Shown: positions 4,026-23,264 of the stretch, one piece after another | Layout: every line of letters begins with the position of its first letter | Numbering within the stretch: position 1 is the stretch's first letter | Assembly: GCF_000219605.1 (NCBI RefSeq) | Contig: NC_015740.1 | Span: forward strand, 2,418,001 to 2,482,000 | DNA: 64,000 nt | Origin: Stutzerimonas stutzeri | GTDB lineage: Bacteria; Pseudomonadota; Gammaproteobacteria; Pseudomonadales; Pseudomonadaceae | Direction: 5' to 3' | Translations under genes and position numbers: made by a program | Notes under the pieces: model-generated | What the model was told of the DNA's origin: nothing | The model's input: only the letters and a program-made list of their open reading frames with translations | The model's database searches: none

Positions 4026-4994
4026 ATGGCTCATCTCATCGAAACCATGGCCTACGCTGGCGCTACCCCGTGGCACGGTCTGGGCAACAACCTGCCGCAG
4101 AAACAACCCATCGAAGTCTGGCAACGCGAAGCCGGCATGGACTGGCAGATCCTGGAAAGCCCTGTGCATTTCAAGTCGGATGCCATCGGCCATCTGGGCG
4201 CGATCCACTCATTCCCGGAACAGAAAGTGCTCTACCGCTCGGACACCAAGGCACCGCTGTCGGTGGTCTCGCAGCGCTATCACACCGTGCAGCCAAAGGA
4301 TGTCTTGGAGTTTTATCGCGACCTGACCGAGGTCTCCGGCTACGAGCTGGAAACTGCTGGCGTGCTCAAGGGGGGTCGCAAGTTCTGGGCGCTGGCACGC
4401 ACCGGCCAGGGCGCTGCACTCAAGGGTAACGACCAGGTAAATGGCTACCTACTGTTGGCCACTTCCTGCGACGGCACTCTGGCCACCACGGCAACGCCCA
4501 CCACCATTCGCGTGGTCTGCAACAACACCCTCACCATCGCCCTGGACGGCACCAGCCGTGCGATCAAGGTGCCGCACAGCACCCGCTTCGATGGTGAGCT
4601 GGTGAAGAAGCAGCTTGGTGTCGCCGTCTCGCAATGGGACGACTTCATGTACCGCATGCGCTACCTGGCTGAACGCAAGGTGCAGTGGCATGAGGCACTG
4701 GGCTTCTTCATGAACGTGATGTGTGAAACCAGCCCGACCGGTCCGCTTCCTGAACAGCTGCCGAACGAGCGCGCTCTGCGCAAAGTTCAGGAGCTGTACG
4801 AAGGTCGTGGCCGTGGCAGTCAGCTCGACTCGGCACGTGGCACCGCCTGGGGCCTCCTCAATGCCGTCACCGAGTACGTCGATCACGAGCGCCGGGCGCG
4901 CAGCACTGAGTATCGCCTCGACTCAGCCTGGTTCGGCCAGGGCGCGCAGATCAAGCAACGCGCCTTGGACGCAGCGCTGCAGCTCGCCGCTTAA
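4026..4994 (+). CDS. DUF932 family phage/plasmid-like protein
   Basis: A 322-residue protein with the N-terminal pattern of the DUF932 / phage-plasmid-like family (MAHLIETMAYAGATPWHGLG, then 'KAPLSVVSQRYHTVQPKDVLEF' split by the family's conserved region). These proteins are common in plasmids, integrative elements and phages; their biochemical role is not established. The ATG at 4026 has a good ribosome site (GAAGGAG). A short palindromic stretch (TACGTAT, two bases, ATACGTA, about 3995-4010) precedes it. Strong codon bias and GC content near that of the host contrast with the AT-rich genes to the left. Confidence 0.85.
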   Translation: MAHLIETMAYAGATPWHGLGNNLPQKQPIEVWQREAGMDWQILESPVHFKSDAIGHLGAIHSFPEQKVLYRSDTKAPLSVVSQRYHTVQPKDVLEFYRDLTEVSGYELETAGVLKGGRKFWALARTGQGAALKGNDQVNGYLLLATSCDGTLATTATPTTIRVVCNNTLTIALDGTSRAIKVPHSTRFDGELVKKQLGVAVSQWDDFMYRMRYLAERKVQWHEALGFFMNVMCETSPTGPLPEQLPNERALRKVQELYEGRGRGSQLDSARGTAWGLLNAVTEYVDHERRARSTEYRLDSAWFGQGAQIKQRALDAALQLAA

Positions 4995-5015
4995 GCTGAT
5001 GCGGCATAAACACAG

Positions 5016-5044
5016 CCCCTGATCGCCACAAGGGTGATCAGGGG
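5016..5044. terminator. Hairpin between the DUF932 gene and vapC
   Basis: CCCCTGATC and GATCAGGGG form the stem of a hairpin between two convergent genes. There is no long T-run on either side, so it is a weak candidate for a bidirectional terminator. Confidence 0.5.
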
Positions 5045-5077
5045 TTCAGCTGCTCTGCGTTAAATGATCGCCCTTAC

Positions 5078-5482
5078 TCAGGCGCTCACCCAATCCTCGA
5101 CGCGCAAACCCGGTACTCGCTCGAATTCACGAAGATTATTCGTGACCAGAATCAGTCCCTGGGCACGTGCGTGTCCTGCAATCATCTGATCATACGGGCC
5201 AATAGGCTTGCCGATACGAGCCAACTCAGCTCGCAATTGCCCGGAATGAGCCGCTGCCTGAGCGTCGTAAGGCAGTACTTCCAGGCGCGCAGCGAAACCT
5301 TCAACGTCCGCCAGATTACGCTCGGGATTAGCGGACTTCTCGGCGCCGTAAATAAGCTCCATCAGGGTGACAGTGCTGATGCTCAGCTGCCCTGAATGGC
5401 GCTTGAAGGCTTCCCGCACCTGCTCAGGACGATTCTTGATCGTGAAAATGCACATGTTGGTATCAAGCATGTACTTCAGCAT
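5078..5482 (-). CDS. vapC: VapC-type PIN-domain toxin ribonuclease
   Basis: A 134-residue PIN-domain protein. Expected acidic residues are present: Asp in 'MLDTNMCIF' at the N-terminus, Glu in 'TLMELIYGA', Asp in 'GPYDQMIAGHA' and the C-terminal 'LVTNNLREFERVPGL'. VapC toxins cleave tRNA or rRNA and are held inactive by VapB. The start ATG overlaps the vapB stop by one base (ATGA), so the pair is translationally coupled. The C-terminus matches the VapC subgroup common in Proteobacteria. Confidence 0.93.
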   Translation of the reverse strand: MLKYMLDTNMCIFTIKNRPEQVREAFKRHSGQLSISTVTLMELIYGAEKSANPERNLADVEGFAARLEVLPYDAQAAAHSGQLRAELARIGKPIGPYDQMIAGHARAQGLILVTNNLREFERVPGLRVEDWVSA

Positions 5483-5712
5483 CAGAACGCATCCCGCTCT
5501 TGATCTGCAGGCTGCTCGCGATCCGCCATGTAGTCAGCGGTCACACCTTCGCCATCGAACCAGACGTCCCAGGCCTCGCCTGCCGGCGTGATGATTCGGG
5601 CTCGACCAACTACCACTACATCCACCCGCTTCACATCCTCAGGCAGCGCAACCGCCTTGGGCAAACGCACCGCCTGACTGCGGTTGCTCTGAAAAACTGC
5701 ACCTTGTTCCAT
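5482..5712 (-). CDS. vapB: VapB-type antitoxin
   Basis: A 76-residue antitoxin with an N-terminal AbrB/SpoVT-like DNA-binding fold (FQSNRSQAVRLPKAVALP) and an acidic C-terminus expected to occupy the VapC active site. A longer frame runs to 5757, but the ATG at 5712 is preceded by GGGGAGG and gives the standard family start (MEQGAVFQSNRSQ). Upstream, inverted copies of GGGATATG overlap a possible -35 box, fitting autoregulation by VapB or VapBC. One-base overlap with vapC. Confidence 0.92.
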   Translation of the reverse strand: MEQGAVFQSNRSQAVRLPKAVALPEDVKRVDVVVVGRARIITPAGEAWDVWFDGEGVTADYMADREQPADQERDAF

Positions 5713-5763
5713 GGAAACCTCCCCGGGATATGCCTTGCGTATAGCCCATTGTGTCAATCAAGC

Positions 5764-5786
5764 GGGATATGTCAACGGCATATCCC
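5764..5786. promoter_or_regulatory. Candidate VapB(C) operator
   Basis: Inverted arms GGGATATG (5764-5771) and CATATCCC (5779-5786) are perfect, with seven bases between. A third half-site GGGATATG lies at 5725-5732 close to the vapB start. On the minus strand the spacer and second arm include TTGACA, a consensus -35, so binding would block the vapBC promoter. No clear -10 was found at ideal spacing. Confidence 0.55.
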
Positions 5787-5865
5787 CAACTAGCCATCCA
5801 CCTACCACCATAACCGCCCGGTCAGCCTTGTGCTGGCTGGGCGTTTTTATGCCTGCAGGAGAAAC

Positions 5866-6873
5866 ATGATGAAAGCCACTTCATTGAACCGCAGCCCCAG
5901 CAAACCCCGCCCAGCCCTACGCCTGATCAGCACCAAGGAATTGCCCCGTGAGGACTGGCTGCAGATCCGCAAGCAAGGCATCGGCAGCTCGGATGCCGGC
6001 GCAGCCGTCGGCCTCAATCCGTATAAATCGCAGCTGGAGTTGTGGATGGAAAAAACCGGCCGCGACACCACATTGCCCAAGGCCGACCCGCACGATGAGG
6101 AAAGCCCGATGTACTGGGGCAACGTGCTGGAGCCCATCGTGGCCTGGCATTACAGCAAGCGCACGAAGAACAAGGTACGGCGCATCAACGCCGTACTGCA
6201 GCATCCGGATCCGGAGCTGCCCTGGATGCTGGCCAACATCGACCGCGAGGTGATCGGGGCCGATGGCGTGCAAATCCTCGAATGCAAGACAGCCGGCATA
6301 AACGGCGCACGCCTCTGGAAAGAGGGCGTACCCGAGTATGTGCAACTGCAGGTGATGCACCAGCTCGCCGTCACCGGCAAGCAGGCGGCGGATGTGGCGG
6401 TACTGCTGGGTGGTCAGACGCTGGAGATCCACCGCATCGAGCGGGATGAGCAGATGATCGCTCGCCTGATCGAGCTGGAGCGCCAGTTCTGGCACTACGT
6501 GGAGACTGATACGCCGCCACCGGCTGATGGCACCGCTTCGGCAGAGTCAGCACTGCGCTGCCTCTACCCGGAGGACAACGGCCAAGTCGTCGACTTCACC
6601 CAGCATGCCGGGCTCAGCGCGGCTTACGTCGAGCTGAGGGCTGTTCGTCAGTCGATTGCCGACAAGGAAAAACGCGAGGCTGAGCTAAAGCAGATGCTGC
6701 AGCAGGCCATGGGCGATGCCAGCAGAGCGGAGTTTTCCAGCGGCTATGTCAGCTGGCGCAAAGCCAAGGACAGCATCGGCCTCGATGTCGCTCAACTGCT
6801 CAAGGACAAGCCCTACCTGCAGACCAAATACCCACTGCTGAAACCGGGTGCACGGCGCTTCCTGGTCGGCTGA
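5866..6873 (+). CDS. YqaJ-type viral recombinase / lambda-exonuclease-like nuclease
   Basis: A 335-residue protein of the YqaJ family (PD-(D/E)XK exonuclease fold). Visible signatures: 'GIGSSDAGAAVGLNPYKS' near the N-terminus, 'MYWGNVLEPIVAWHY' with the first catalytic Glu, 'ANIDREVI' with Asp, and 'ILECKTAG', the ExK motif. Such enzymes resect double-stranded ends for single-strand annealing recombination. The frame extends to 5830, but the ATG at 5866 has AGGAGAAAC immediately upstream. It is followed by the Gp3-like and RadC genes. No RecT/Bet/Erf annealing protein is recognisable next to it. Confidence 0.88.
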   Translation: MMKATSLNRSPSKPRPALRLISTKELPREDWLQIRKQGIGSSDAGAAVGLNPYKSQLELWMEKTGRDTTLPKADPHDEESPMYWGNVLEPIVAWHYSKRTKNKVRRINAVLQHPDPELPWMLANIDREVIGADGVQILECKTAGINGARLWKEGVPEYVQLQVMHQLAVTGKQAADVAVLLGGQTLEIHRIERDEQMIARLIELERQFWHYVETDTPPPADGTASAESALRCLYPEDNGQVVDFTQHAGLSAAYVELRAVRQSIADKEKREAELKQMLQQAMGDASRAEFSSGYVSWRKAKDSIGLDVAQLLKDKPYLQTKYPLLKPGARRFLVG

Positions 6874-6964
6874 AACCAACCTCATTCATCCCTTCCCTCC
6901 CCTTGGCCAGTCCATGCAGTTCGCACTGCGTGGCTGGCCTTTTTTCATTTCCAGGAGAATTACC

Positions 6965-7915
6965 ATGCTCAAAGGTCTGGCTATCACTCCACCGGTACTC
7001 GGGCGGATTTCCATCGGTAAGGTCATCGAGAAGAACGGCAAACGGCTGCCGGAGAAGGATGACCAATTCACCATCACATCCCAGGTGCAGGGTAAGGACG
7101 GCTGGCTGCTGCACCCGCTCAATGACGAGCTACGTCAGGGCAAGGACGACAAGCTGCGCAGCATTCCGGTACGCCTGCTGTTCAACGAACCGGAGCTGAA
7201 TTTCCGGGCTGACTACACGCTGTTCGACCGGCAATCGGGTCGACCGGTTTGCGTCGGTAATGGCGAGACCTGTAAGCGGGTCACACAGGACGGCATGCAG
7301 TCGCTGCCCTGCCCTTCACCGGATGCCTGCCCACTGGCCAAAGGCAGTGCCTGCAAGCCCTACGGCCGACTGAACGTAGTCATTGGCGATGAGGATCCGC
7401 TGGGCAGCTTCGTGTTCCGTACCACCGGTTTTAACAGCATCCGCACCCTGGCCGCGCGCCTGCATTACTTCCAGGCCATCTCGGGCAACCGCCTGGCCTG
7501 CCTGCCACTGGAACTACGTCTGCGTGGCAAGTCGACACGCCAGAGTCATGGCACGCCGATCTTCTACGCCGACCTGACGGTACGCGGTGGCATGGAAATG
7601 GCCGAAGCATTGGTGACAGCCAATGAACTCGATTCACGACGTCAGGCTGCAGGCTTCAATCAGGCCGCTTTGGATGAGGCGGCACGACGCGGCTTCGGCA
7701 ACGGTGCGTTCGAGGACAGCGAGGAGGATGTCGGCGCCATCGTCGATGAGTTCTACCCCGAGGGTGAAGCCACTGCTGTAGCAACAATGTCTCAACTCAA
7801 CCCCACCAAACCCAGCCTGGCTGAAAAGCTCGATGCACAGGCTGCACGTCAAACCCCACCCACAGACCAAAACCAAGGAGGCCGCCATGCGCCTGCACAA
7901 GCTGAAAGCCAGTGA
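6965..7915 (+). CDS. Cys-rich protein resembling Gp3-like recombination directionality factors
   Basis: A 316-residue protein often labelled 'hydrolase or metal-binding protein' in Pseudomonas elements. Order of motifs: N-terminal 'LGRISIGKVIEKNGKRLP' and 'DDQFTITSQ', then a cysteine cluster (GNGETCKRV, LPCPSPDACPLAKG, SACKPYGRLNV), then 'GSFVFRTTGFNSIRTLAARL'. This order resembles the Gp3-like recombination directionality factor family of serine-integrase phages as I remember it; the assignment is inference. Four cysteines could bind zinc. The C-terminus is acidic and low-complexity. The ATG at 6965 follows CAGGAGAAT. Its end overlaps the radC-like start by 29 bases, so the two are co-translated. 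Confidence 0.65.
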   Translation: MLKGLAITPPVLGRISIGKVIEKNGKRLPEKDDQFTITSQVQGKDGWLLHPLNDELRQGKDDKLRSIPVRLLFNEPELNFRADYTLFDRQSGRPVCVGNGETCKRVTQDGMQSLPCPSPDACPLAKGSACKPYGRLNVVIGDEDPLGSFVFRTTGFNSIRTLAARLHYFQAISGNRLACLPLELRLRGKSTRQSHGTPIFYADLTVRGGMEMAEALVTANELDSRRQAAGFNQAALDEAARRGFGNGAFEDSEEDVGAIVDEFYPEGEATAVATMSQLNPTKPSLAEKLDAQAARQTPPTDQNQGGRHAPAQAESQ

Positions 7916-8384
7916 CACGACAGGCACCTACCTGGTCGAGTCGCCGGTGACGGAAAACGACATCCTGCTGATGGCCAAGCAACTGGCCAGTCTGCGCCTG
8001 CGCAAGGGCCGAGCACTGACTTCCCCCAAGGACGTGTTCTGCCACCTGCAAACATTGCTGGCCAACTATGAGCATGAAGTATTTGCCCTGCTCATGCTCG
8101 ACAGCCGGCACCGAGTGATCGCATTTGAGGAAGTGTTTCGCGGCACGCTGGATAGCGCCAGCGTCTACCCACGGGAGGTCGTGAAGCTCGCCCTGGAGCA
8201 CAACGCCGCTGCCCTGATCCTGGTGCACAACCACCCTTCGGGAGACCCTGAGCCCAGCATGGCGGATCGCAATCTCACCACAAAACTGCAGGACGCGCTG
8301 AATCTGGTCGGAGTTAGAACGCTCGATCACGTTGTGGTGGGGAACGAAGGCTGCGTGTCACTGGCCGAACGGGGATACCTCTAA
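7887..8384 (+). CDS. RadC/JAB-domain (MPN+) protein
   Basis: A 165-residue RadC-like protein with a JAB1/MPN+ metalloprotease-type domain: 'HNHPSGDPEPSMAD' carries the His-x-His...Ser...Asp metal-binding motif, after the conserved 'LDSRHRVIAFEEVFRGTL'. RadC-family genes are typical of integrative elements; despite the name the role in DNA repair is doubtful. It is shorter than chromosomal RadC, lacking the N-terminal helix-hairpin-helix part, as is normal for element copies. The ATG at 7887 follows AAGGAGG. It overlaps the preceding gene and is followed nine bases later by a tiny membrane-peptide gene. Confidence 0.92.
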   Translation: MRLHKLKASDTTGTYLVESPVTENDILLMAKQLASLRLRKGRALTSPKDVFCHLQTLLANYEHEVFALLMLDSRHRVIAFEEVFRGTLDSASVYPREVVKLALEHNAAALILVHNHPSGDPEPSMADRNLTTKLQDALNLVGVRTLDHVVVGNEGCVSLAERGYL

Positions 8385-8579: not shown

Positions 8580-8603
8580 ATGGGCAGCCGAGAGGCTGCC
8601 CAT
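8580..8603 (-). terminator. Hairpin, probable terminator of the defence operon
   Basis: ATGGGCAGCC and GGCTGCCCAT form a perfect 10-bp stem with loop GAGA. Read on the minus strand it is followed by TTTT, so it fits termination of the DUF499 operon coming from the right. The rest of 8,562-8,812 shows no convincing gene. Confidence 0.55.
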
Positions 8604-8812: not shown

Positions 8813-11644
8813 CTACTCCCCCTCAAACTCCGCCTCGCCAAACCGCAGCACATTGCAGTTTTCCTTGATCGTGCGCTGCAATGACTCGTCAAAGCCGGTG
8901 GTGCTGTTCGCCTCAATCTCGATGGAGATGCGCACATCCACGCCCAGGCGTGAGCTGAACTGCTCCACAATCTCGTCATAGATCTGGGCAAAATCCATTT
9001 TGGCTTTGACCGGGTCGATATTGATACTGCCGTAAAAACGCTTCTTGATCGCTGCGGTGGGCGCCACAGTTGAGCCAGGCGCAGCGGGAGCTGTTGGTGC
9101 AGCGGTTGTGGGTGTTGTGCCGGCATAGTCTCCCTTGTCGCCTTCGCTGGCCGTTGGGACCTGGGGCTGGGGTACCGGCTTGGTCGCTTCACGGTAGGCA
9201 ATAGCCGCATCCTGCTGGATCAACAGGGCGTCGGTATCGAGGGTGACCATGGTGTCGCGCTCGAAGATGAAGCCCAGGTATTTATCGCCATCACGCCCCG
9301 CAGCAAAGCCGAAGTAGTCTGCCGTGGCCAGACCCTTGGTCAAAGTAGCCTTGAACACGTTGTCGTTGAGCAGGCGCGGCATGTAGAGATAATGGCAGCA
9401 GTCCTGATACACCTTGAGGGCACTGACATCTTTACCGCCATCGCGGAAGTACCATTTTTCCAACAGGTTCTTCAGGTGTACTGGGCTCCAGTCAGTGACC
9501 AGCCACTCCTCTTCCTTGAGCTTGTTTTCAATCTCGGCAATCAGGCTGGTGGCCGCGCTGGAGACGATTACGCCTTCCCAACGCAGTTGCGGCTTACCAC
9601 CGACAAAGTCCTCGGATGGGCATAGCAGCCACTTATAGCAATCGCGCACAACCTGTTTGAGCGTCTGCTCGGCACCGTCGCGGTTTTTCTTTGCCTGCTT
9701 GGCCTGGAACAGGTCGAGGTTGAGCTTACCCTCGTCAATGTCCGCGACTATTTCTTGCCAGGCGATAAAGATCCGCCCGGCCTCTTTCAGGCGGCTGACC
9801 ACGTCGTAGTCTGGCGCCAGGAAGATCAGACGGTTGCGTTTTTGCCGTGGCTGATCGCCACGTTTGGTCAGGATTTCCTCAGCGGCGGTCTGTGCGGCCT
9901 TGCCATCGACGCGGCTGTAACCAGCATCTGGCGGCAACACTACCAAGCGAGGGCCATTACCGTACTCATCGGGCACATCCGTTGACGGGGTGAAAACGTG
10001 AATGCCGGCAAAGCTGTGGTTGGTGGCAAAGACATTGCGTACCTTGTCGCGCAGCAGCGGAATCAGCTGCTCACGGGTGCTGATGTTCTGGATACGGCTT
10101 TCCATCTCGCGGCGCAGGTTCGGCTTGGTATCCAACCAGAAGCGGTCCTGCTCGGCATACAGGTAATGCAGTCGATCACGCAGACGCTTCAGCACATCCT
10201 CAAACACGCCGATGGTCTGCTCCGGCTGAACCGAGCCCAGCAGAATACGCTCAACCTGAATACCCTTGACCATCTGGCCAGTCCCCGAGGGAGCGCTACC
10301 CAGAAAGATGGTGCGCATGGAGCGGCGTGCCGCCTGTACGCTACCAAAACGGGTATCCCGGCTATCAATCTCGTAGGGCTCCGAGCGCGGGCCATCCACT
10401 TCACGCTCGATCACCGGCTCCCAGCCCTGGGGCAGGTAATGAATGCTCTTGTCACGCACGTTGCTGTCATCCAGGGCAATCGAACCCGGCATGATCAGGG
10501 CGTCACGGTTGTCCGAGTTCCACAGCCGGTGAATGACGATAGCCATGTACTGCAAGACGCCACGCGTGCGCTGAAACTTGTCCAGGGTCGACCAGTCCTC
10601 ATAGAGGCGGTCAAAGATTTCCGGATGGATCGGATAGGATTTACACAGCCGCTCGAAATAAACATTGGACTGGGTTTCCAGCGGGAACTTGCTGCTGTTG
10701 TTGCGATAAAAATCGGCAAACTGGCGGCAGATACCTTCAACGTGAGCCTGCTCGCCAGCGGTCTCGAACAGCCGACGCCGCACGATTTCAAAGGCTTCTT
10801 CCGAGGCCACTGGTTTCCAGACTGACTCGACCCGGGCAAAGTACTTCTCCAGTGAGTTCAGCGCCCGCTGGCCTGTGGTGCCACCCACCTCTACTTCCGA
10901 CTCCGGCAACGACGCCAGCAATATCGCGTTAGGCACTGCTTTCATCGCTTCAGTCAGCGCCTGGATAAAGGTCAGGTTGGAGTCAAAGGTACCGGCACGG
11001 TAGCTCTTACCCGGTTCAAACTGACGCAGGAAGGCCACCAGCTCGTCGATCAGCACCACGCAGGGCGCCGCCTTTTGTAGCAGCTCAACCAGCAAACGCT
11101 TGCCCGGCGAAGTACCTTGCTCGTCCGACTCGCGCACCATGGCAAGGCCTTCTTCACCCAGCAGTTGCCAGGCTAGCTCGCCCCACAGTGTTGTGACCTT
11201 CTGGCCGTTCTTTTTTACCAGCTCCTGGCTGGGTGCCAGGGCGATGCCGTCAATCACCGCCACCTTGGCTTGGGGCAAATCCGTGATACCCGCATCATCC
11301 AGAATAGGCGGTATGCCTTCCAGAGCGCTGGTGGCGACCTTGCGCGAGGCCAGGTGATACACCGCCAGCATGGTGTGGGTCTTACCGCCACCAAAGGCGG
11401 TTTGCAGCTGAATGACCGGATCACCGCCCTGCCCAACCAAACGCTGGGCTACCGACAACAGCAGCAGGCGCATACCTTCGGTAATAAATGTACGGGCGAA
11501 AAACTTCTCCGCATCCTGGTATTCAGCTGGTGCAGTACCGGCAGCAACCTGAGAAATATCCGCGGCGAACTCGGATTGTTTGAAGGTGCCTTCGAGGACA
11601 TCTTTGTGCGGTTGCGCAATCTCACGCCAGGGCTTCAAGCTCAT
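8813..11644 (-). CDS. DUF499 domain AAA-type ATPase of a predicted defence operon
   Basis: A 943-residue DUF499 ATPase. A Walker A-like loop ([11 protein letters not shown], residues ~82-92) and Walker B ([10 protein letters not shown], Asp ~200/Glu ~201) are intact, indicating ATP hydrolysis. Near residues 825-870 a Pro/Ala/Thr-rich low-complexity linker separates a conserved C-terminal domain ([16 protein letters not shown] onward). DUF499 proteins are linked to DUF1156 methyltransferases and helicases in defence islands; the exact mechanism is unknown to me. The frame extends to 11686, but the ATG at 11644 ([10 protein letters not shown]) has AAAGGA upstream. It lies 13 bp after the methyltransferase stop and is the last gene of the four-gene operon. 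Confidence 0.9.
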
Positions 11645-11657
11645 TGTCAGTATCCTT

Positions 11658-14522
11658 TCAGAGTTCCAGTCCGATCTGTTCGTCACGGTGACCGGTGTCG
11701 TGCGAGGCAGCGACGATGGCGTGCCAGGAGCCGATCAGTTCGTTGTAGGCGCGGGCTTCTTCAGCCCATTTCTTGCGCTCGCAGAGGGTGTACAGGTGGT
11801 AGGCCAGTTGGCGGATGGGTTCGCCCTGCTCTGGCATACGCGCCAGCAAGGCGCCAGCGGCGGCTTCGCCCTGCTGATTGAGAGCGCGGATCATCTGGTG
11901 GCAGGCCTCCCAGACCGGGGTGCGCGTATCATTTCGTGGGTCCCAGTCACTGGGGTACTCGCTCCACTTGAGCAGACGCACCTTGCCGCTACCGGATTCG
12001 ATCACTCCGGCAGAATGCACGCCATCCACTGAGGTGCCTTTCGCCTGAGCCAATGTGTTTGCATCACCGAAGGCACCTGCACTCCAGCCGTACTGGGCAA
12101 ACCAGTCATCGCAGAACAGGGTATCGGCATCAAAGCTGCCGCTGTCTGGGTTCAGATAATCGCTGATGGCGCGATTGATCATGATCAGTGCGTCATGCAC
12201 GCTCATGCGTGAACCATCCTGATTGAGCACGGCGGCATATTTGGAATAGATAGCCATACCGGGGCCAATTGCAGACTGAGCCAGATCCACCGGAGCAATG
12301 GGCGTCTGGCCGGTTTCACCACCAATCATCGCCTCCAGGGCCTCCGGCATCCCCTCCCGAAGCTGGCGCTGGAAGTCGCGACGAGAAATTGATTCAGCAT
12401 CGAGTTTACGCGTTCGACAGACCAAAACAATTGATGAAGCTAACGCATTTGATCCCTGACCTCGCATCCGGGCAGCACGCTCTGTTCTCAGAGGCCAGGT
12501 ACCTGTTATCTTAAATCCGCCCTGAATAACTGACTCAAGAAAAGTTTCCCAGCCTGTTGATTTAGTAGAGTCGTCTTTGGTTTCTGACTGCTTGAAAGCA
12601 TAATAAATTGTTACAGGGAAAGCAGGGTGAGTGTTTTCGGCCAATTTCTGTATTGCTAGAAGCATACCACTTGTGAAGAAATTTTGAGCCTGATCTTTCC
12701 CACCCCAGCGTTTAAAATCTGCTACAAGCTCTTGCTCCTTCGGCGTAGTGATAGTGCTAAACAAATCTCGGTCTACTTCCTTGAGAATACGTCTCTCCCA
12801 AATATAAAAGAAATCTGAAAGATCAGAATATGGAACGTTGTCATAATAAGGGGGATCACAAGAAATAATTGCGTTAGCAACATTATTTTCAACCGCATTC
12901 ATTTGCCTCACATGCGCAGGCGAACCATCAGTAGCCGTTTGCCCAATGCTAATAATGCCCCGCTGCACCCCCTTGCTCACGGTTAACCAAGAACCTGATG
13001 AAGTTCCTATTGGATTTGCTTCTGCAAAGTCCCATGCCATTGGTATAGCTTGCCGAGTAAATAAGTGCAAGGGACATTCTTGAATATGCCCCCATGCGGC
13101 AAGAGAATTGTTTATATCCGCTAACTTTCCTAGCGAAAAAGCCAAGTAATGAACTATGGCATCTGCATAAACTGAAGAAAAGCTTTCCCCATAAGAGGCG
13201 ATAAATTTTGAGCAGTGTAGAGCATCTTTTTCAACCTCACTCCGAACCTCTTTGATCAGCTCACAGAAAGTTTCCAATGCCAACAACTGTCGTTTTGTAT
13301 ACAGGTCCGAATGCTTTGTTAGCCCATAAGAAATCGTTCCCATATATTGGGAATGTTTCGACAACTCAACATCCGGAGGAGTTTCTGGCTTAGCACTTCT
13401 AGCTATCTCTTCATCATATTCAGAAGGATCAATGTAAACACGACCCTTTCTCCCCAAAGCGACTATTGCTATCAGCTTCGCACCAAGCTCACCCATTAAT
13501 CCTTGCTCGCGGACATAATTAGAAGTTATTGGTGCGCCAGAAAGTATGCATTCAAAATTAGCCCCCCTTGATTGTTTTGTGCCTTTCTTTAATGTAGCAG
13601 GGTCTGAAGGGACGCCATGAATTACTTTAAATCTGTACCCTGAACCATTCTTTTCTATCTCAGCCCATACCTGCCTCCCCTTCTTGGAACAAAGAAAGAA
13701 ATTTGTCATCAAAGGAACATGAATATTACTGAAAGCTGGACTAGGGCTTCTAACCGTTCTAGCCCAGACGTAAGAAACCACTGGGAGCCCATCGTGATCG
13801 GAGCCACCCAAACTTTCAGAAAGCTTTATTTCTGGGTAATATCTTTGCAATTTATCTTTTGCTCGACGATAAACAACGTGAGCATATCTTTTTACATCTT
13901 CAGACAGTCCATGAGCACCACTGTATTCCCGATCAAAAACAGCTTGTTTTTCATTTTTTGGTATCGGACCAACAGGCGAAACTTCCGAAAAAAGTGCTGG
14001 ATAATAGGTAAGGCCTTTGTTAATTGAAACTGAAATAGGGTTGATATCTGTTGCATGCACAGCCAACCCCAATCTCTGCGCCTCGAGAGGGATAGAACCA
14101 CCACCTGAAAAAGGATCATGAAACTCAGGGAGCAAGGCTTCGTTCCAATTCAAAGCAGGGTTTAATGCACAACTCTCTTTCCATGACTCAAGTATTTTAG
14201 TTCGAGCACGCTTAAAAAGGCTTTTTTTGTTTGAGTTATTGAAATCAGACAACTCTCGTAGAATATCGAACAACTCCTCCCGCTCTGACTCAGCTTGAGC
14301 CTTAGTTTTCCCTTTACTCCACCCTCTTTCCCCCCCAGGATCATTGACTAACTGAGCGAAAAGTATAGCCCGTGCAGTTACAAACGGGCGCCTAGCCCAC
14401 CAAAGATGGAGATTTGAAGGGTGCCCTAGGCGAATTGATTTTTCAGATGATGAAAATCCATTGATGTCGTCCAATGGCAGCGCAACTTCGATAAGTTTTT
14501 TGGGAGATTTGATCGGATGCAT
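11658..14522 (-). CDS. DUF1156 domain adenine-specific DNA methyltransferase
   Basis: A 954-residue methyltransferase. The N-terminus has the DUF1156 signature ([19 protein letters not shown], residues ~28-46). SAM-binding motif I is '[13 protein letters not shown]' (from ~136); the catalytic motif is '[13 protein letters not shown]' near residue 555, DPPY being typical of N6-adenine methylation. Such enzymes are thought to mark host DNA within defence systems. The frame is open to 14741, but the family N-terminus begins at ATG 14522. The segment 14,560 to about 12,390 (residues 1 to ~710) is AT-rich (33-43% GC in counted lines) while the C-terminal ~245 residues are GC-rich like the flanking genes, so the gene is a mosaic. 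It lies 73 bp after the helicase and 13 bp before the ATPase. Confidence 0.9.
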
Positions 14523-14595
14523 TAGCAGTACTCGGGCCAAAGGCTGGCGCAAAATAAAACGAAAGGGTTTGAAAGTCTGTTGACTGAATGGGGCA

Positions 14596-17500
14596 TCATG
14601 GCAATGCCTCGGGCATAACGGCCTTAGATAGCAACTCATCAAGGCTGTAGTTGATGCTGGCCACGCCAAAATCCGGCTCGCTGCTGAACGGGTTGCGAAT
14701 GTAGTAAGGCCCTTCAAAGGCATCGCCATCGACAACCACAATGGCCAGTATGAATTTATCCGCCTGGTTCAGCCCATAGATAATCTCGTTACGGGTGACG
14801 GTGATGGTGCTCTGCCCCTTGGCGCGGCCTTTGACTTCGATGTGCCGATCCGTCGGTAGTGAGCCGTCAGGTCTGACGGGCGGACGAGCAGTCACATCCC
14901 AGCCGCATTTCTCGGCGCTGACATCCTTGATCTCATGCCCTAGTGCCTGTTCGGCACTGATCACCGCTTGCATGGCTACACGTTCAACGCGGGCACGCGC
15001 CGCGGCATCCACACTGAACTGGGTTTCACCCTTGCGCGCAGACAGCAAGCCCTGGGGGATGACCAAGGCGCCACCCATCACCACCGGGGTACTGGACACC
15101 ACGTTTTTCATCGCGCTTAGCTCGGCAGTACGCTGTTGCAGCCGGGCCGTCAGCTCATCAACGGTACGTTTGGCATTATGCGGCTGAAGCCGTGGCTGCT
15201 TGCCAGCGGCAACATCATCGGTCAGCTTCATGTAGCGGTCTGACCAGTAGCTGATCTCCTTGACCAGTCGCTCATGCACGGCGGCGAGGATCTTGTCGGC
15301 CTGGCGCTCACGGCGGGCTTTCACTTCGCTGTAATGCTCCGGCACCAGGTGCCGGGATGCCTGTTGCAGGGCCAGGACCTCAAGATTCTGATTCAGCCAG
15401 GGCGCTTGCAGGATGTCACTGACCAGTTTGCGGTCGTAGTCATCGATGGGCTGCAAATCCAGATGCGGTGCCCAGCCCGCATTGACAGCATTGCCTTGCT
15501 GGTCGATCTGCACAAATTGCAGGCGACGCGATACCACAGGCTGGTTGCCGCGACTGTCTGTGGTGCTCTCGCGCACGTTGTGCTCGATCATAAACAGCAC
15601 CTTGGGCTCCAGGCTGTCATCCGCCGGATCAATCAGCACTGCGCCCTGCTTCAACCGTGGTCGGTTGCTCTGCAATATCAGGTCGGTGGTGGCGTGCATC
15701 AGCGGGTGCGCTGGGTGGATCAGGTCAGCCATAGGCTTGCCCGGCAGGCGGGTGTGGCCTTTTTCAAAGCAGACGCGTTCGTACTTGCGCAGCACCGGGG
15801 TGCGGGTTTCGCTGATCACCCGATCGCGCTCACGAATGACCGCCGGTACATGCTTGACCTCATAGCGACCCGTTTCCCGGGGGCGCAGCTCGCCGCCCAG
15901 CCGGGCAAAGGCTTCAGTGAAGAAAGCACGAATGAAATAGGGTTGCAGCTTGCGCGCCTCGGCCTTTTCCATTTCGTCTTTGACGGCATAGAGGTCTTCC
16001 AGCCCCATGTGCTGCTCGGCCAGGGCGTTGCGCTTGAGGATGTCGCGCAGGTGTTCGGTGTCCAGGGCGCCTTCGATCACCTGATTCATCTTGGCGCGTG
16101 TTTCCGGGGCGTCGCCGTAACGAATGGCCTCGATCAACAGATCCTTGAGGGAGACTTCCTCAAAGGCTTCACCGAGCACGTCAAATACCTTGCCACCGAG
16201 TGCGGCGCGCTCGATTTCGATCTTCTCGAACAACTTCTGGAAAACCTCACCTTCACGGGTGCCCGCGGCAATGATGTTCCACAAGTGGCAAACCTCGGTC
16301 TGACCAATCCGGTGAATACGGCCAAAGCGCTGTTCAAGGCGGTTGGGATTCCAGGGCAGGTCATAGTTGACCATCAGGTTGGCGTTTTGCAGGTTGACGC
16401 CCTCGCCCGCTGCATCGGTCGCGATGAGTACGGTGACTTCAGGATCGTTGCGGAACTCTTCCTGTACCTTGCGGCGCTCGTCGCGGTTGGTGCCGCCATA
16501 GATGACGCGCACGGCATTGGGGTTGCCGAGCATATTCTGGATGCGCGCTACCAGGTAATTCAACGTGTCCTTGTGCTCAGTGAAGATGATCAGCTTGCGC
16601 CGGGAACCCGAGGCGAGGAACATTTCCGGCTTGTCTTGCAGCAGGCTGGACAGCTGTTCCCACTTTTTGTCGTTACCCGACTCCACCAGCTGGTGGGCCT
16701 GATGCTCCAGGTCCTTGAGGATCAGGATTTCGGCTTCCAGTTCGGGAATGGTTTCAGCCGCAGAGGCCTGATCCACTACCTGCTCGGTGTAGAGCTCATA
16801 TTCCTCGGCGCTGAGTTCATCGTCGATGTCATCCAGGCTGTCGGGCAGGTCGAGCTTCTTCTTGACCACATACTCGCCGAGGGTTTCAGCGCTGTGCAAT
16901 CCCTTGTTGATGGACTCGCCCCGGGCCAGTAGTTTGGTTTCATCCAGGCGCAGCTCAAGGCGCTTGCGACGGCGCTTGAGGGACTGGTAAATGGCTTCAG
17001 GGCTGGACGCCAAGCGGCGCTGTAGCTGGGTCAAGGCAAAGCCGATGGTGCTGCGCTTGCTGCCATCGAGCTTGTCGGCGCGGTTCATTTCCTCGCGCAC
17101 GTAGGTGGTTACCTGCTCGTAGAGCGAGGCTTCCAGCGACGACAATTCATAGCTGGCGGTATAGGCCTTGCGCTCGGGGAACAGGGGCGTGCCGTCAAAC
17201 TTCAACAGCTCTTCCTTGACCATGCGGCGCATCATGTCGGAGACATCCACCTTGTGCGCGCCTTCACGGAACTTGCCATAGAAGCGATCACCATCAAGCA
17301 ATGACAGCCAGATCTGGAAGTCCTCTTCCTTGCCGTTGTGCGGCGTGGCGGTCATCAGCAGGAAGTGCCGAGTAATAGAACTGAGTAGCTCACCTAATAC
17401 AAAGCGCTTGGTTTTGTTGACCTTGTTGCCGAAGTAGTTGGCCGAGAGTTTGTGCGCCTCGTCAACGATGATCAGATCCCAATGGGTGTTCTTGAGTTTT

Positions 17501-18150
17501 TCCTGGTAGTCCTCGTTGCGCGATAACTGGTCGAGCCGGCAAATGAGTTGATCCTGGTCCTCGAAGAAATTGCCCGAGGCGCTCTGCTCCTGCTTCTCGC
17601 GACTGAATATCTCGAACTGGACGCCGAATTTCTCCAACAGCTCGTCCTGCCACTGCTCAGTCAAGGAGCCAGGTGAGACGATCAGAATACGCCGGGCATC
17701 GGCGCGCATCAGTAGCTCGCGGATCAACAAGCCCGCCATGATGGTCTTGCCAGCACCGGGGTCATCGGCCAGGACATATCGCAGGGGCTGGCGCGGCAAC
17801 ATGCTTTCATACACCGCTGAAATCTGATGCGGCAACGGATCAACGTTGGAGGTATGCACCGCCATCATCGGATCAAACAGAGCTGCTTGACTGATGCGGT
17901 AGGCCTCAAGACCCAGCTTGAAGTCTTCACCATTGGCGTCAAAGGCCCATGGGCGGCCAGCCTGCGCCAGCTCCAGGCGCGCTTCATCGGTACGAAACAG
18001 CATTTGCTCGCCCAACTTGCCCTGGCTGTCGCGGTAGATGATGGTGACGGCGTGGTCGCCCACCTTTTCTACCTGTGCGATACGCACGATCTGATCGGGT
18101 ACTACGCCGCTGAGCTGGGCGTCTTTGGTGATCTCTTCAAGCTTCAGCAT
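14596..18150 (-). CDS. SNF2-type DEAH helicase with C-terminal DUF3883 nuclease-like domain
   Basis: A 1184-residue superfamily 2 helicase. Walker A '[12 protein letters not shown]' at ~129-140, the DEAH box '[10 protein letters not shown]' at ~226-235, and helicase motif VI '[12 protein letters not shown]' in the second RecA domain. After a long coiled middle region the C-terminus has a DUF3883 domain: '[10 protein letters not shown]' (Asp ~1085) followed by '[10 protein letters not shown]' (Glu/Lys ~1105-1107), the spacing of PD-(D/E)XK nucleases. It probably translocates on DNA and may cleave it. Its start overlaps the WYL regulator by 14 bases, so the two are coupled. It lacks the DrmA/DrmB partners of DISARM nearby. 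Confidence 0.92.
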
Positions 18151-19057
18151 CCATTGCCTCCGTGTGTCTATGCTGGCTTACTTCCATGAAGCCAGGCGCT
18201 ATGGTCAAAGCAGATTGGGATTGCAGCTGGGCAGCATTGCTCAGCCACAGCAGATACTCAGGCCCTTGCAAGCAGTGGTCGGGAGTGCAATCGACGTTCC
18301 AGCGGCGAAGCAGGTAGCCGGCCAGGGCGGCACGGACCTCAAGGGATAAACTGCCATCGCGCATGGCGTATTCATGGGCCACCGTGTCTGGATGTCTCAA
18401 CTGCGGGTGCGGCTTGATCTCCAGGTGCAACATTTGCTGCCAGGTTTGATCCGCTTGGCGCAGCTCGGACTGATCTGTTCTGCCGGCCAGCACTTGTACC
18501 TGGTCCATCCGGTTGAGGACAAAATCAGCATAACGCTGCTGCTCGGGCTCGTAAGCGCGCAGGTGCCAACGCAGGCCGTTGTCGACCAGCACCAGGGGAA
18601 CGATGGTTTTATGCGTTAAACCACTGGCAAGGGAACGGTAATCCATTTGCAGAGGGTTGCCGTTGAACAGCGCCCTGGCCACGGGGATCAGTACATCAAT
18701 TGCAGGCGCATTGAGCCGACTCGGTAGCTCGCATGGCAACCAGGATCTGGGCGTAGCGACGAAATCATCACCAAAGCCCTCTGCCAGCGCAGTGAGTACC
18801 TGGGAAGCAGAATAATGAAAGAGTGGTGCAAGGTCAGGCGCAGGGATGTACAAGGCGCTTGAGCGGTCGTAATGCAGGTTGCTGGGCGCCAACTGACGGT
18901 AGAGAGCAAAGTCACGCGAGGCTGCCGACTCGCTCACCCCAAAGCGACGCGCCAGATCCGGGCGATTGGCAGAACCGAGAAACATCAGACGAAACTCGAT
19001 GAATGCCAGGCGTTCCTGCTGGGGTTGCGATATGTCGGCGAGTACGGCGTGTTGCAT
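18137..19057 (-). CDS. WYL-domain winged-helix regulator of the defence operon
   Basis: A 306-residue regulator. The N-terminal helix-turn-helix is '[19 protein letters not shown]', followed by a WYL-type ligand-binding domain ([34 protein letters not shown]). The layout resembles BrxR/CapW-type regulators that repress defence operons until a signal is sensed. An upstream TTG at 19060 exists; the ATG at 19057 is preceded by AAGGAC. It is the first gene of the operon and overlaps the helicase start by 14 bases. A near-perfect palindrome on the promoter (19110-19132) is the likely autoregulatory operator. Confidence 0.88.
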
Positions 19058-19091
19058 CAATCGTCCTTGCGGCCTGATCCTTGATGGCCTG

Positions 19092-19132
19092 ATGCTAGTT
19101 CAAACCGCCCCACTCGTCAATTTGACAAGTGG
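19092..19132 (-). promoter_or_regulatory. Promoter and operator of the defence operon
   Basis: On the minus strand TTGACG (19115-19120) is 17 bases from TAGCAT (19092-19097), a good sigma-70 promoter with a predicted start about 25 bases before the WYL ATG. A 23-bp inverted repeat at 19110-19132, arms CCACTCGTCAA and TTGACAAGTGG with one central base and one mismatched pair, covers the -35 box. A dimeric repressor bound there would block transcription. Confidence 0.7.
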
Positions 19133-19219: not shown

Positions 19220-19587
19220 TTATCCGCGACGAGCACGGTTCAGAGCCCCCTTACGCAGGCAACGCGCCCCTGCAGGCTTCAAGCGCAGGTGCTGATCGTC
19301 CTTGACCAGGTACTTCATCGCGAAGTGCGTATGGGGCCGTCTCGACTGATCCTCCCTCTGGATCAGGCCGATGCCGCACTCGTCACCATACCCTTCCTTG
19401 TCATGGTTGCAGCTGTGGGCATAGCCCTGACCACGCGTGACCCCCTCCCATAGCTCACTGATCTCAATCGCCTTCCAGACATCCCGGCATACCTGGTTGC
19501 CATTGAAGTAGTAGGCTGCATGGATGTGGTAGCCGCTGCCATCATTGCGATCGCCCTGCTCCACTGAGTACGTGTAGCCGATGAGGT
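19220..19587 (-). pseudogene. 3' part of a Gp2/YagK-YfjJ-type gene split by IS21
   Basis: The C-terminal ~120 residues of a Gp2-like protein. It keeps the HxH motif (GYHIHAAYYFNGN) and the Tyr-Leu-Val-Lys motif (KYLVKDDQH) with a basic tail. Removing the IS21 element and one copy of ATGAGGT joins it in frame to the 5' part at 22208-22818, giving 'FEHL' followed by 'IGYTYSVEQG' and an intact protein of about 323 residues. It is therefore a recent disruption with no other decay seen. Distinct in sequence from the Gp2-like protein at 247-1350. Confidence 0.85.
19581..19587. repeat. Target-site duplication of IS21, left copy
   Basis: ATGAGGT directly abuts the left end of the element and recurs immediately beyond the right end. 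Confidence 0.75.
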
Positions 19588-19683
19588 TGCGGATTCCACA
19601 CCATCCGGCCACCCAGTCCACGCTCATCTGGCCAGGCATTCCACGGCCATCTGGCCACCTGTTCCACGGCCATCCGGCCGGGC
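19588..19683. repeat. Left IS21 end: four tandem 23-bp repeats
   Basis: Units start at 19588 (terminal, 27 bp), 19615, 19638 and 19661. The shared core is TTCCACGGCCATCTGGCCA, inverted relative to the right end. Confidence 0.85.
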
Positions 19684-19715: not shown

Positions 19716-20471
19716 TTAGTCTGAGGTGCCCGGTGTCGTCAATTTCTTCGTCTGTTTGCGCATCGATTCGCCCTTGAGGTTGATCCGATAAGCGTTGTGC
19801 ACCAGGCGGTCGAGGATGGCATCGGCCAGGGTCGGATCGCCGATCAGTTCGTGCCAGTTGTCCACGGGCATTTGGCTGGTCACGAGGGTCGAGCGCTGGC
19901 CGTAGCGGTCGTCCAGTAGCTCCAGCATGTCACGGCGCTGTTCAACGGTGAACGGGGCCAGACCCCAGTCATCAAGGATCAGCAGGTCGGTCTTGGCATA
20001 GCCGCTCATCAGCTTGGCGAAGCGCCCGTCGCCGTGGGCTAGGCCCAACTCTTCCAGCAGGCGTGGCAAGCGCAGGTAACGCACGCTGTAACCCTCTCGG
20101 CAGGCCTGGTGGGCCAGGGCGCAGGCCAGCCAGGTTTTACCCACGCCGGTGGGGCCGCCGATGATCAGGTTGAGGCCGTCGCGTAGCCACTGGCCGCCGC
20201 TCAGTTGCAGGATCAGCGCCTTATCCAGCCCGCGCGGGCTGCGGTAGTCGATGTCTTCGAGGCAGGCGTTGTGCTTGAGCCGGGCCTGGCGCAGGCGGCT
20301 GCTGAGGCGCTTGTCGTCGCGTTCGGTCAGTTCGCGGTCGACCAACAGGCCGAGGCGTTCCTCGAAGCTCAGGCTGTTGATGTCGGGGGTTTTCAGTTGC
20401 TCGGCGAGTGCCTTGAGCATGCCGGTCAGGCGCAGGGTCTGGAGCTTGTCCAGGGTCGGATGGGGCAGCAT
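19716..20471 (-). CDS. istB: IstB-like ATP-binding protein of IS21
   Basis: A 251-residue AAA+ helper of IS21 transposition. Walker A 'IIGGPTGVGKTWLA' and Walker B 'DLLILDDWGLAPF' are intact; the N-terminal 'LDKLQTLRLTGMLKALAEQL' is typical. The frame is open upstream to 21038 inside istA, but the ATG at 20471 gives the family's normal length and follows an AAGGA-type ribosome site. It loads and regulates the IstA transposase on target DNA. Confidence 0.96.
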   Translation of the reverse strand: MLPHPTLDKLQTLRLTGMLKALAEQLKTPDINSLSFEERLGLLVDRELTERDDKRLSSRLRQARLKHNACLEDIDYRSPRGLDKALILQLSGGQWLRDGLNLIIGGPTGVGKTWLACALAHQACREGYSVRYLRLPRLLEELGLAHGDGRFAKLMSGYAKTDLLILDDWGLAPFTVEQRRDMLELLDDRYGQRSTLVTSQMPVDNWHELIGDPTLADAILDRLVHNAYRINLKGESMRKQTKKLTTPGTSD

Positions 20472-20488
20472 GGTGGGATTCCTTGGGG

Positions 20489-22018
20489 TCAGTGGTAGTA
20501 GGCGGGGCCGCGCAGGTTGGCGTGGTCGTCCGGCAGCAGGGGCAGGTTGGCTTGAGCCAACGGCAGGTTTTCCAGCCCCTGGCGCAGGATCGATTCGAGG
20601 CTCTTGTAGCTGCACGCGCCGAGGCTGAGGGCGCGACGGCAGGCCAACTCCAAGCGCACTTCGCCATGGGTCTTGCCCAGGCGCAGGATGCCCAGGCAGG
20701 CCCGGTAGCCCTGCTGCGGATGGATGCGCCGTTCGAGGATGTGCCGGATCACGCCGGCCGTGTTCGGCCCGGTCTGCTCGGCCCAGCGGATCAGCCGCTG
20801 CGGCGTCCACTCGGCATGCTCGCGATGGCTCTTGGGCATGTGCTCGGCCTGCGTGCTGTGCCTGCCCTTGTGCATTGAGCGAAGGTGACTGGCCACCCGC
20901 TGATTGGCGTGGAAGCACTCCACCGTGCGCGCTGTCAGGCGTACTTCCAGTTGTTTCTTCACCAGTTGGTACGGCACCGAGTAGTAGTGCCCATCGACCT
21001 CGACGTGGTAGTCGATGTGCACCCGCGCCTTCTTCCACTCGGCGTAGACGTAGGGTTGCTCCGGCAGGGGGCGCAGCGCCGGACGATCCAGAGCTTCGAA
21101 GGCCGACTGCCGGGAGCCCGGCAGCTTGCGAAACGGTCGTCGGTTGAGCCGCTCCAGCAATAAGGCGATGGCGCTGTTGAGTTCATCCAGGGAGAAGAAC
21201 TGCCGATTCCTCAGCGCGGCGAGGATCCAGCGCTCGACCACCTGCACGCCGACCTCGGCCTTGGCCTTGTCGCGCGGTTTACGCGCCCGCGCCGGCACCA
21301 CCGCCACGCCATAGTGCTCGGCCAGATCGCGGTAGCTCGGGTTGATGTCCGGCTCGTAGCGATGGCTCTTACTCACCGCGCTGCGCAGGTTGTCCGGCAC
21401 CACGATCTCCGGCACGCCGCCGAGGAAGGCAAAGCAGCGGGTATGCGAGCCCAGCCAGTCCGGCAGCTGCTGCGACCAGGTGGCTTCGGCGAAGGTGTAG
21501 CTGGACGCACCGAGCACCGCGACGAACACCTGCGCCTGGCGGATCTCGCCGCTGTGGCGGTCGATCACCGGCACCGTCTGCCCGGCGTAGTCGACGAACA
21601 ACTTCTCGCCGACGCGGTGCTCCTGGCGCATCACCACGTCCAGCTTGCCCTGCCAGGCCCGGTAGTGCTCGCAGAACCAGCTGTACTGAAAGCCTTTCGG
21701 CTGGCTCAGGCGATACTCCTGCCAGAGCAGCGCCAAGGTCACGCCCGGCCGGCGTAGCTCGGCATGCACCCAAGACCAATCAGGCAGTGGCCGCTGCTCG
21801 CTGGGCACTGCCGGCGCCGGTGGGAACAGCTGCTGTTCCAGCTCGGAATCGGACAACGAACAGGGCCAACTGAGGCCGCTGGCGGCAAAGCGGTTGAGGT
21901 AATCGCCGACGGTGACACGACCGATCTGCACGCTGACCGCAATCTGGCGAGCCGATAGCCCGACCTCGAACTTGAGACGAAGTACTTCGCGAATCTTACG
22001 CATGGATAAACGCTCCAC
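20489..22018 (-). CDS. istA: IstA transposase of IS21
   Basis: A 509-residue DDE transposase. An N-terminal helix-turn-helix (GLSARQIAVSVQIGRVTVGDY) precedes the rve-type catalytic core: Asp in 'LFVDYAGQTVPV', Asp in 'EIVVPDNLRSAV' and Glu in 'DKAKAEVGVQVVERW'. The C-terminal beta domain begins 'HIDYHVEVDGHYYSVP'. It ends 17 bp before istB. Full length with no frameshift seen. Confidence 0.96.
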   Translation of the reverse strand: MERLSMRKIREVLRLKFEVGLSARQIAVSVQIGRVTVGDYLNRFAASGLSWPCSLSDSELEQQLFPPAPAVPSEQRPLPDWSWVHAELRRPGVTLALLWQEYRLSQPKGFQYSWFCEHYRAWQGKLDVVMRQEHRVGEKLFVDYAGQTVPVIDRHSGEIRQAQVFVAVLGASSYTFAEATWSQQLPDWLGSHTRCFAFLGGVPEIVVPDNLRSAVSKSHRYEPDINPSYRDLAEHYGVAVVPARARKPRDKAKAEVGVQVVERWILAALRNRQFFSLDELNSAIALLLERLNRRPFRKLPGSRQSAFEALDRPALRPLPEQPYVYAEWKKARVHIDYHVEVDGHYYSVPYQLVKKQLEVRLTARTVECFHANQRVASHLRSMHKGRHSTQAEHMPKSHREHAEWTPQRLIRWAEQTGPNTAGVIRHILERRIHPQQGYRACLGILRLGKTHGEVRLELACRRALSLGACSYKSLESILRQGLENLPLAQANLPLLPDDHANLRGPAYYH

Positions 22019-22089: not shown

Positions 22090-22207
22090 GTGGCCGGATG
22101 GCCGTGGAATCAGTGGTCGGATACGCGTGGAATGGGTGGCCGGATCACCGTGGAATCGGTGGTCAGATGCTCATGGAATGGGTGGCCAGATGACCGTGGA
22201 ATCCGCA
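22090..22207. repeat. Right IS21 end: five tandem 23-bp repeats
   Basis: Units start at 22090, 22113, 22136, 22159 and 22182; the last includes the terminus CCGCA. The common core is GTGGCCGGATCACCGTGGAA, alternating GTGGCC and GTGGTC. Confidence 0.85.
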
Positions 22208-22214
22208 ATGAGGT
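22208..22214. repeat. Target-site duplication of IS21, right copy
   Basis: Second copy of ATGAGGT, adjoining the right element end. Confidence 0.75.
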
Positions 22215-22818
22215 GCTCGAATATCGGTTGACGGCTGTGTTTATCGATCAAATCATCCAGGTGCTCGAATACCTGCTCGACTCGCAGCCTGGCCTGAGCC
22301 TCAGGGCGGTAATACAAGTCCAGTCTGATGACCGTAGTGCGGGAGTAAAGGCTCATCACTGCATCCGTGTACGCGATGATCTCCGTCGCTTGCTTGCGTG
22401 CCTCATAGGCTCGATCTCCAGCTTTGCGCTGATACCGACGCTGACGGGTCAACTCACGGATCCGTTCGGTCAGGACGTTCATGCTCTGTTGATGACTGAG
22501 CCAGTACGTACCCGTCTCGCTCATGCAGACAGGGCCATTGGGTGAACGCTGGAGGCCGATGTATTCCCATGCCTCCCTGAACGCTAACAGGTGCTCGCTG
22601 TAGTCGTATGGCACCCGATCATCGAACAGGTTGTACATCTGCTGCACGTTGGTGAAGTACCGGGAGAGTCTGGTCTGCTCGACCTGCTCATAGCCTGACC
22701 GTTTGTGCGTGATCCGATATGCGGGTGTATCGCTGCGCTCGATAGCCTGGACGAGTGATTCGATCTGCAGGGCTATGTCGGACTGTGAGAGGTGGGTGTT
22801 GTGCTTGCGGTTGTTCAT
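22208..22818 (-). pseudogene. 5' part of the Gp2/YagK-YfjJ-type gene split by IS21
   Basis: The first 203 residues of the interrupted protein (MNNRKHNTHLSQSDIALQ onward), including the 'TTVIRLDLYYRPEAQ' strand that precedes the HxH region in this family. The open frame runs on into the IS21 end and stops after 11 or 12 foreign codons. The missing metal-binding and Tyr motifs are at 19220-19587. The truncated product should be inactive as a nicking enzyme. Confidence 0.85.
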
Positions 22819-23219: not shown

Positions 23220-23254
23220 AAAAAATCCAGTCACCGCTAAGTGACTGGATTTTC
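23220..23254 (-). terminator. Rho-independent terminator of tRNA-Pro(GGG)
   Basis: AATCCAGTCAC and GTGACTGGATT pair perfectly around CGCTAA. On the minus strand the stem is followed by a run of seven T. It lies just past the tRNA 3' end. Confidence 0.8.
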
Positions 23255-23264
23255 TAGGGTTTTT

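Follow-up and report, generated by a model that had tools for sequence, protein, structure and literature searches.

The Hma system was named in 2021 as a candidate system with 1,638 instances in 26 phyla (PMC8565338), and was re-described in 2026 as a BREX-related (BR) system centred on a DUF499 protein, with the Type-1 BR form found in 2446 taxa (PMC12839542). In the available passages of the 2026 account, the antiphage action of the HmaA helicase is attributed to a 2024 Halomonas study, and a restriction-modification-like reading of the family is an inference (PMC12839542). The available passages of both accounts likewise treat target recognition as inference only (PMC8565338, PMC12839542).

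Here we analyse 64,000 nucleotides of Stutzerimonas stutzeri DNA (contig NC_015740.1, 2,418,001 to 2,482,000; hereafter the window, whose positions are used unless the genome is named). Reading from sequence, we put a probability of about 0.75 on the window holding a complete Hma (Type-1 BR) operon behind a BrxR-family WYL gene, which would provide restriction-modification-like phage defence, with HmaB choosing and methylating self sites and HmaA cutting unmarked DNA.

Four genes lie on the minus strand at 19057-8813. They encode a 306-aa WYL-domain regulator of the BrxR/CapW family (18137-19057), the 1184-aa HmaA, a SNF2 helicase with a C-terminal NOV_C nuclease-like domain (14596-18150), the 954-aa HmaB, a predicted DUF1156 adenine-type DNA methyltransferase (11658-14522), and the 943-aa HmaC, a DUF499 AAA+ ATPase without an N-terminal HEPN extension (8813-11644). 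The mechanical open reading frame (ORF) list gives longer frames for the methyltransferase (from 14741) and the ATPase (from 11686), within which the PADLOC profiles do not start until residues 74 and 15, respectively. With the shorter starts that the profiles support, WYL and hmaA overlap by 14 bases, hmaA and hmaB are 73 bp apart, and hmaB and hmaC 13 bp, as a first-pass annotation of this DNA had described. The WYL gene starts with ATG, and its frame also opens at a TTG one codon upstream. The hairpin that the same annotation had placed at the operon end is present, just outside the span it had given the operon: a candidate terminator with a 10-pair stem and a T-rich tail (8580-8603, minus strand) lies about 210 bases past the hmaC stop, in a terminator scan that overall was not above chance (9 found versus a mean of 11.1 in shuffles).

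No genes are embedded among hmaA, hmaB and hmaC in the window operon, and both gaps are shorter than 300 bases in 14 of the 58 relatives in which all three hma genes were found. Between hmaA and hmaB, two E. coli loci (L130 and L132) carry genes for an AAA ATPase and for a putative HNH endonuclease, at 14540-16546, and just a short ATPase-like ORF is left there in other E. coli loci. In seven Thermus loci (L140-L144, L146 and L147), hmaA is on the strand opposite to hmaB and hmaC and points away from them; the intervening DNA carries Fic-family ORFs or small ORFs together with toxin-antitoxin-like genes. On the Thermus thermophilus plasmid pTthSNM7-6b (L145), hmaA and neighbouring HTH genes are kept without an annotated DUF1156 or DUF499 gene in the fetched stretch, and loss of hmaB and hmaC is possible.

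The three large proteins match the PADLOC models near full length (HmaA, 2228.4 bits, residues 1-1181; HmaB, 1389 bits; HmaC, 1571.3 bits, profile positions 1-940 of 941), in the same gene order and on the same strand. Pfam domains comprise WYL in the regulator (38.7 bits), SNF2-rel_dom, Helicase_C and NOV_C (76.5 bits) in HmaA, DUF1156 and MethyltransfD12 in HmaB, both above cut-offs, and DUF499 in HmaC. These agree with the domains called earlier, where we take NOV_C to be the DUF3883 named at that stage. We identify the quartet as a complete copy of the already named Hma system plus its own regulator gene. The first-pass annotation had considered it a candidate for a poorly described system and had proposed a profile search against PADLOC; that search returned full-length HmaA, HmaB and HmaC, a system named in 2021 (PMC8565338), and the claim of poor description is not supported.

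We assign the operon to Type-1 BR because its helicase has a C-terminal nuclease domain and neither PglZ nor DUF3780 was matched among the four operon proteins and the neighbouring ORFs, the latter scanned in part. The Type-1 set of DUF499 ATPase, DUF1156 methyltransferase and SNF2 helicase is all present, and the models for Type-2 BR and NCBI anti-phage DUF499 proteins (NF042962, NF042963 and NF042964) stayed below their cut-offs (203.6 of 1200, 82.5 of 1000 and 171.7 of 1100 bits). Two other systems were considered. For BREX, the matches listed for the four proteins (the best 25 of 56 for the helicase) hold no PglZ or BrxC at an E-value of 1e-3 or better. For DISARM, the helicase scores 376.7 against the DrmD cut-off of 610 and fits HmaA far better, and DrmB is absent among the matches listed. 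The earlier view that the locus is neither DISARM nor canonical BREX stands.

An alignment of 29 HmaA sequences shows no variation in the helicase motifs (DDPG.GKT at 129 and DEAH at 230) or at the nuclease-type residues D1085, E1105 and K1107. The NOV_C domain spans residues 1055-1144, and the C-terminal nuclease-type motif is intact; an active C-terminal PD-(D/E)XK nuclease is reported on the helicase in 79% of Type-1 BR taxa (PMC12839542). Residues 23-52, checked for the N-terminal Tudor domain of Type-1 BR, form three short strands in a poor model (pTM 0.32). The genome encodes one full-length HmaA, with the remaining 10 matches to the HmaA model at 173 bits or less, and full-length HmaB occurs in 2 of 56 Stutzerimonas genomes, the window genome included.

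HmaB carries the motifs DPF.GGG at 136 and DPPYY at 556 (DPPYYDN), invariant in an alignment of 45 sequences save single positions. Because of the DPPY motif and the D12-class match, HmaB is predicted to methylate adenine at N6. In the structural model of HmaB (mean pLDDT 75.1, pTM 0.73), an insert separates the strand that follows motif I (155-159) from the strand ahead of DPPYY (551-555), which fits the Type-1 BR trait of a target-recognition insert after core strand 2. A single zinc finger is mentioned as usual in that insert, not as defining, in the available text of PMC12839542; judged by CxxC spacing only, at least one CxxC is found in 11 of 194 HmaB inserts, and two in none of the 194.

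Two hypervariable modules lie within the insert. Among 194 HmaB sequences clustered at 80% identity, module V1 (residues 281-400; 13323-13682, minus strand) falls into 125 clusters and V2 (residues 461-545; 12888-13142, minus strand) into 112, and the stretch between them is variable too (88 clusters). Other segments form 11 (residues 1-120), 28 (121-240), 37 (546-665), 11 (706-825) and 27 (835-954) clusters. Pairs with alike C-termini show two dips in identity, near 281-400 and 461-540. The modules also vary separately: V1 is at least 90% alike with V2 below 65% in 15 of 38 pairs, and the reverse holds in 38 of 73, whereas the halves of the C-terminus, taken as a control, never split in this way (0/686 and 0/460). 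Between the E. coli loci L130 and L132, for example, V1 is 100% identical and the V2 region 49%. By strain name, E. coli ET846 and AW1.7 have natural alleles with V1 in common. In the model, V1 falls on strands 285-302 and 347-364, helices occupy 410-470, and V2 falls on a strand-helix-strand unit at 498-540. We infer from sequence and model that V1 and V2 are two recognition modules. Two modules with helices between them are reminiscent of HsdS.

Variation of HmaB stands out among closely related operons. Comparison of 59 operons gave 1711 pairs, 70 of them with HmaA at least 90% identical; in these 70, HmaB identity lies below that of HmaC in 60, and in 67 no region of HmaB is less identical than the insert (178-545). 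Across nine E. coli loci, HmaA is 97.1-100% and HmaC 97.5-100% identical, with HmaB at 81.2-91.7% in 27 of 36 pairs and nearly the same in the remaining nine. Seven loci on Thermus thermophilus plasmids have HmaB as the lowest of the three in every pair (21/21; 88.9-96.9% versus at least 98.4% for HmaA and HmaC). One counterexample, the pair L010 and L014, has HmaA at 95.8% and HmaB at 94.5%, with no excess divergence of HmaB.

These comparisons also bear on the possibility that HmaC, not HmaB, recognises the invader sequence through variable C-terminal domains, as the available passages of PMC12839542 suggest for DUF499 proteins, which we consider unlikely here. At large distance HmaC is the less conserved protein (medians of 54.8% versus 62.8% for HmaB in pairs with HmaA at 60-70%), and HmaB lies below HmaC in only 118 of 793 such pairs; thus, recognition may be shaping HmaC as well. 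In close pairs, its least conserved blocks lie near residues 801-900 and go down to 64-75%. Against this, over 51 close pairs each 50-residue block of HmaC has a median of 94-100%, so HmaB alleles change without a matching change in HmaC.

The nearest operon, from S. stutzeri TS44 (L001), is 97.4% identical in WYL, 99.5% in HmaA and 97.1% in HmaC, and 62.4% in HmaB. Between the two operons, blastn aligns 4695 bases at 96.4% on one flank and 4607 bases at 93.4% on the other, with one 41-base match in the middle. Identity of the DNA drops to 42-65% within hmaB, in the 200-base blocks with labels 14400-14000 to 12600, versus 88-100% elsewhere, save the hmaB edge blocks (78 and 84%) and one end block (78%). 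HmaB sequences from metagenomes (P0006-P0009) are 90-98% identical to the window protein at residues 41-80 and 481-520, where TS44 reaches 55 and 62%, and 59-85% identical at residues 801-954, where TS44 reaches 98-100%. The window HmaB is a mosaic: some stretches of the N-terminal two thirds are closer to the metagenome sequences, and the C-terminus is closer to TS44. Fast point mutation under selection, in place of segment exchange, is a rather improbable source of this variation: the dips do map to an insert of surface type, on which selection favouring new specificity would act as well, but the sharp DNA borders against TS44, the switch in closeness along the protein and the separate sharing of V1 and V2 among HmaB pairs all argue against it. 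We conclude from these alignments that the two modules are exchanged separately between closely related operons whose HmaA and HmaC are alike. Such variation probably enables Hma to alter its target sequence.

In the mechanism that we favour, HmaB alone would set the target, with V1 and V2 acting as recognition parts swapped by recombination, and would methylate the host sites picked by its two modules, at adenine N6 judging by its motif. HmaC, an AAA+ protein, may assemble or license the complex, and HmaA would move along DNA and cut where the mark is missing. By binding a palindrome over the -35 box, the WYL protein would keep its own promoter repressed, and may release it on an infection or damage signal. 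More broadly, Hma may be a shuffling restriction system, in which two HmaB modules inside the catalytic domain are swapped independently of each other among strains and species, the helicase-nuclease and the ATPase are blind to specificity, and a plug-in regulator slot (WYL with a palindromic operator, or a small HTH protein) sets the on-state; for this wider reading we see the chances as even. The predicted restriction-modification-like action, already proposed in the first-pass annotation, agrees with the published inference for the family (PMC12839542). It is very unlikely that HmaB instead marks phage DNA for attack rather than protecting the host: such an order of events is reported for the Pgl system (PMC10273834), but there is no sign of Pgl-like action in the present data, and the intact HmaA nuclease-type motif suits classical restriction.

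Turning to the regulator, the WYL protein matches the solved chains of a BrxR-like protein (7qfz, 1.2e-73, residues 5-293), BrxR (7t8k, 8.8e-24) and CapW (9c5g and 7tb6), and is a BrxR-family relative by its kinship over the HTH, WYL and C-terminal parts. Its association with hma was assessed in 80 hmaA loci from named genomes, 69 of which have enough upstream DNA for a search within 800 bases. A relative of the window WYL stands beside hmaA in 28 of these 69, and 41 are without a detectable one; two loci counted as too short upstream (L001 and L074) also carry a relative. In the 10 E. coli loci fetched, the WYL position is taken by an HTH-like ORF of 80 aa, which has a 97% match in Kosakonia; L010, L014 and L031 (two Legionella species and L031) have a different family of small HTH-like ORFs there. 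Given these other small DNA-binding-like ORFs, the regulator slot is interchangeable, and we regard the WYL gene as an optional partner of hmaABC. The earlier annotation had also proposed neighbourhood statistics for its four-gene set; by the count of 28 in 69, the WYL gene is not a fixed part of it. An undescribed four-gene system with WYL as an essential fourth part is scarcely credible, given the 41 loci without a WYL relative, the small ORFs that E. coli, two Legionella species and L031 carry instead, and three core genes that already make up Hma, even with the 14-base overlap of WYL and hmaA and the 28 loci in its favour.

A sigma-70-like promoter site, TTGACG-17-TAGCAT (19092-19120, minus strand; 9 of 12 matches), is the only one before the WYL gene, where a promoter had been annotated. 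The promoter scan overall was not above chance (4 found versus a mean of 5.5 in shuffles), so the call depends on position and on the palindrome that covers the site. This 23-base palindrome (19110-19132) lies over the -35 box, has no second site in the genome when up to 3 mismatches are allowed, and is a candidate WYL operator. Twelve of 30 WYL upstream regions contain its core, TCAWWWTGA, versus 63 of 7432 background windows of 200 bases and 1 of 46 hmaA upstream regions that have no window-type WYL; the core is common to 10 of 28 loci besides the window and TS44. We treat the core as a lead, not proof: it was chosen with these sequences already in view, the window and its near-twin TS44 account for two of the 12 occurrences, and 18 of 30 regions are without it. 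Repression of hma by the WYL protein would fit its BrxR kinship.

The operon sits within a 25.7-kb island in tRNA-Pro(GGG). The right attachment repeat, in the tRNA gene (23230-23309), is identical at 77 of 80 positions to the left copy (genome 2415585-2415664), 2.4 kb left of the window, and a tyrosine integrase gene lies just within the left end of the island (genome 2415772-2417172). G+C content is 54.9% in window 1-23229 versus 61.8% in 23345-64000. A YqaJ-like recombinase borders an island hotspot of Pseudomonas where Hma has been located (PMC12629846), and the window island also has a YqaJ gene (5830-6873), next but two to hmaC. Mobile-element cargo adjoins the operon (4026-8384, plus strand, and 5078-5482, minus strand), including DUF932, PIN-domain, YqaJ exonuclease-like, Gp3-like and RadC proteins, and a DUF3987 protein is encoded at 1559-3058 (minus strand; 277.9 bits). 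An ORF at 247-1350 (minus strand) has a weak YagK/YfjJ (inovirus Gp2-like) match (25.6 bits versus a cut-off of 25.8), and such a gene or its remains also lie upstream in several E. coli hma loci. An IS21-family element (IstA, IstB) lies between two gene pieces (19220-19639, 19716-22018 and 22171-22818, minus strand). Both pieces resemble the ORF at 247-1350 (28% and 22% identity) and make up a second such gene, split by IS21 insertion just upstream of WYL. The PADLOC DrmD model PDLC02630 matches the frame of the IS21 helper ATPase (89 bits); thus, this model may contain transposon sequence and may yield false calls.

In passages of the open-licence literature we found no report of the HmaB modules, the WYL-Hma link or the palindrome, and the two-module exchange and promoter palindrome go beyond the published accounts found there. 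Should HmaB set the target by itself, by way of its two exchangeable modules, methylomes of naturally occurring allele pairs (the window strain with TS44, or the E. coli or Thermus sets) would assign half-sites to modules, and specificity would be seen to change without change of the cutting machinery. Hma/BR is widespread, as its 26 phyla (PMC8565338) and 2446 Type-1 BR taxa (PMC12839542) indicate.

Compared with Hma as first described, all three window proteins fit the models along their length, with gene order and strand unchanged; the window copy differs by the extra WYL gene ahead of hmaA, and its HmaB looks to be of the N6-adenine type, whereas PMC8565338 terms the methylase m5C. With Type-1 BR (PMC12839542) it shares the DUF499 ATPase, the DUF1156 methyltransferase whose insert follows strand 2 and the SNF2 helicase with a C-terminal nuclease-type domain, likewise without PglZ among the window genes examined, and an ATPase without the HEPN extension is a known variant. 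The Type-1 BR traits also include a C-terminal RRM-like domain on the DUF499 ATPase. The available description there has one target-recognition insert, in contrast to the two separately exchanged modules that we see in the window family.

With the BrxR/CapW regulators (PMC9122601), the WYL protein shares sequence kinship, a gene position ahead of a defence operon and an inverted repeat at the promoter. The window palindrome is unlike the pEFER box bound by BrxR, and Hma is not named among the partners in the available passages of that study. Finally, exchange of recognition parts is described for Type I and Type III restriction enzymes too (PMC10273834). By contrast with those enzymes, both HmaB modules sit within the methyltransferase itself, between the cofactor motif and DPPYY.
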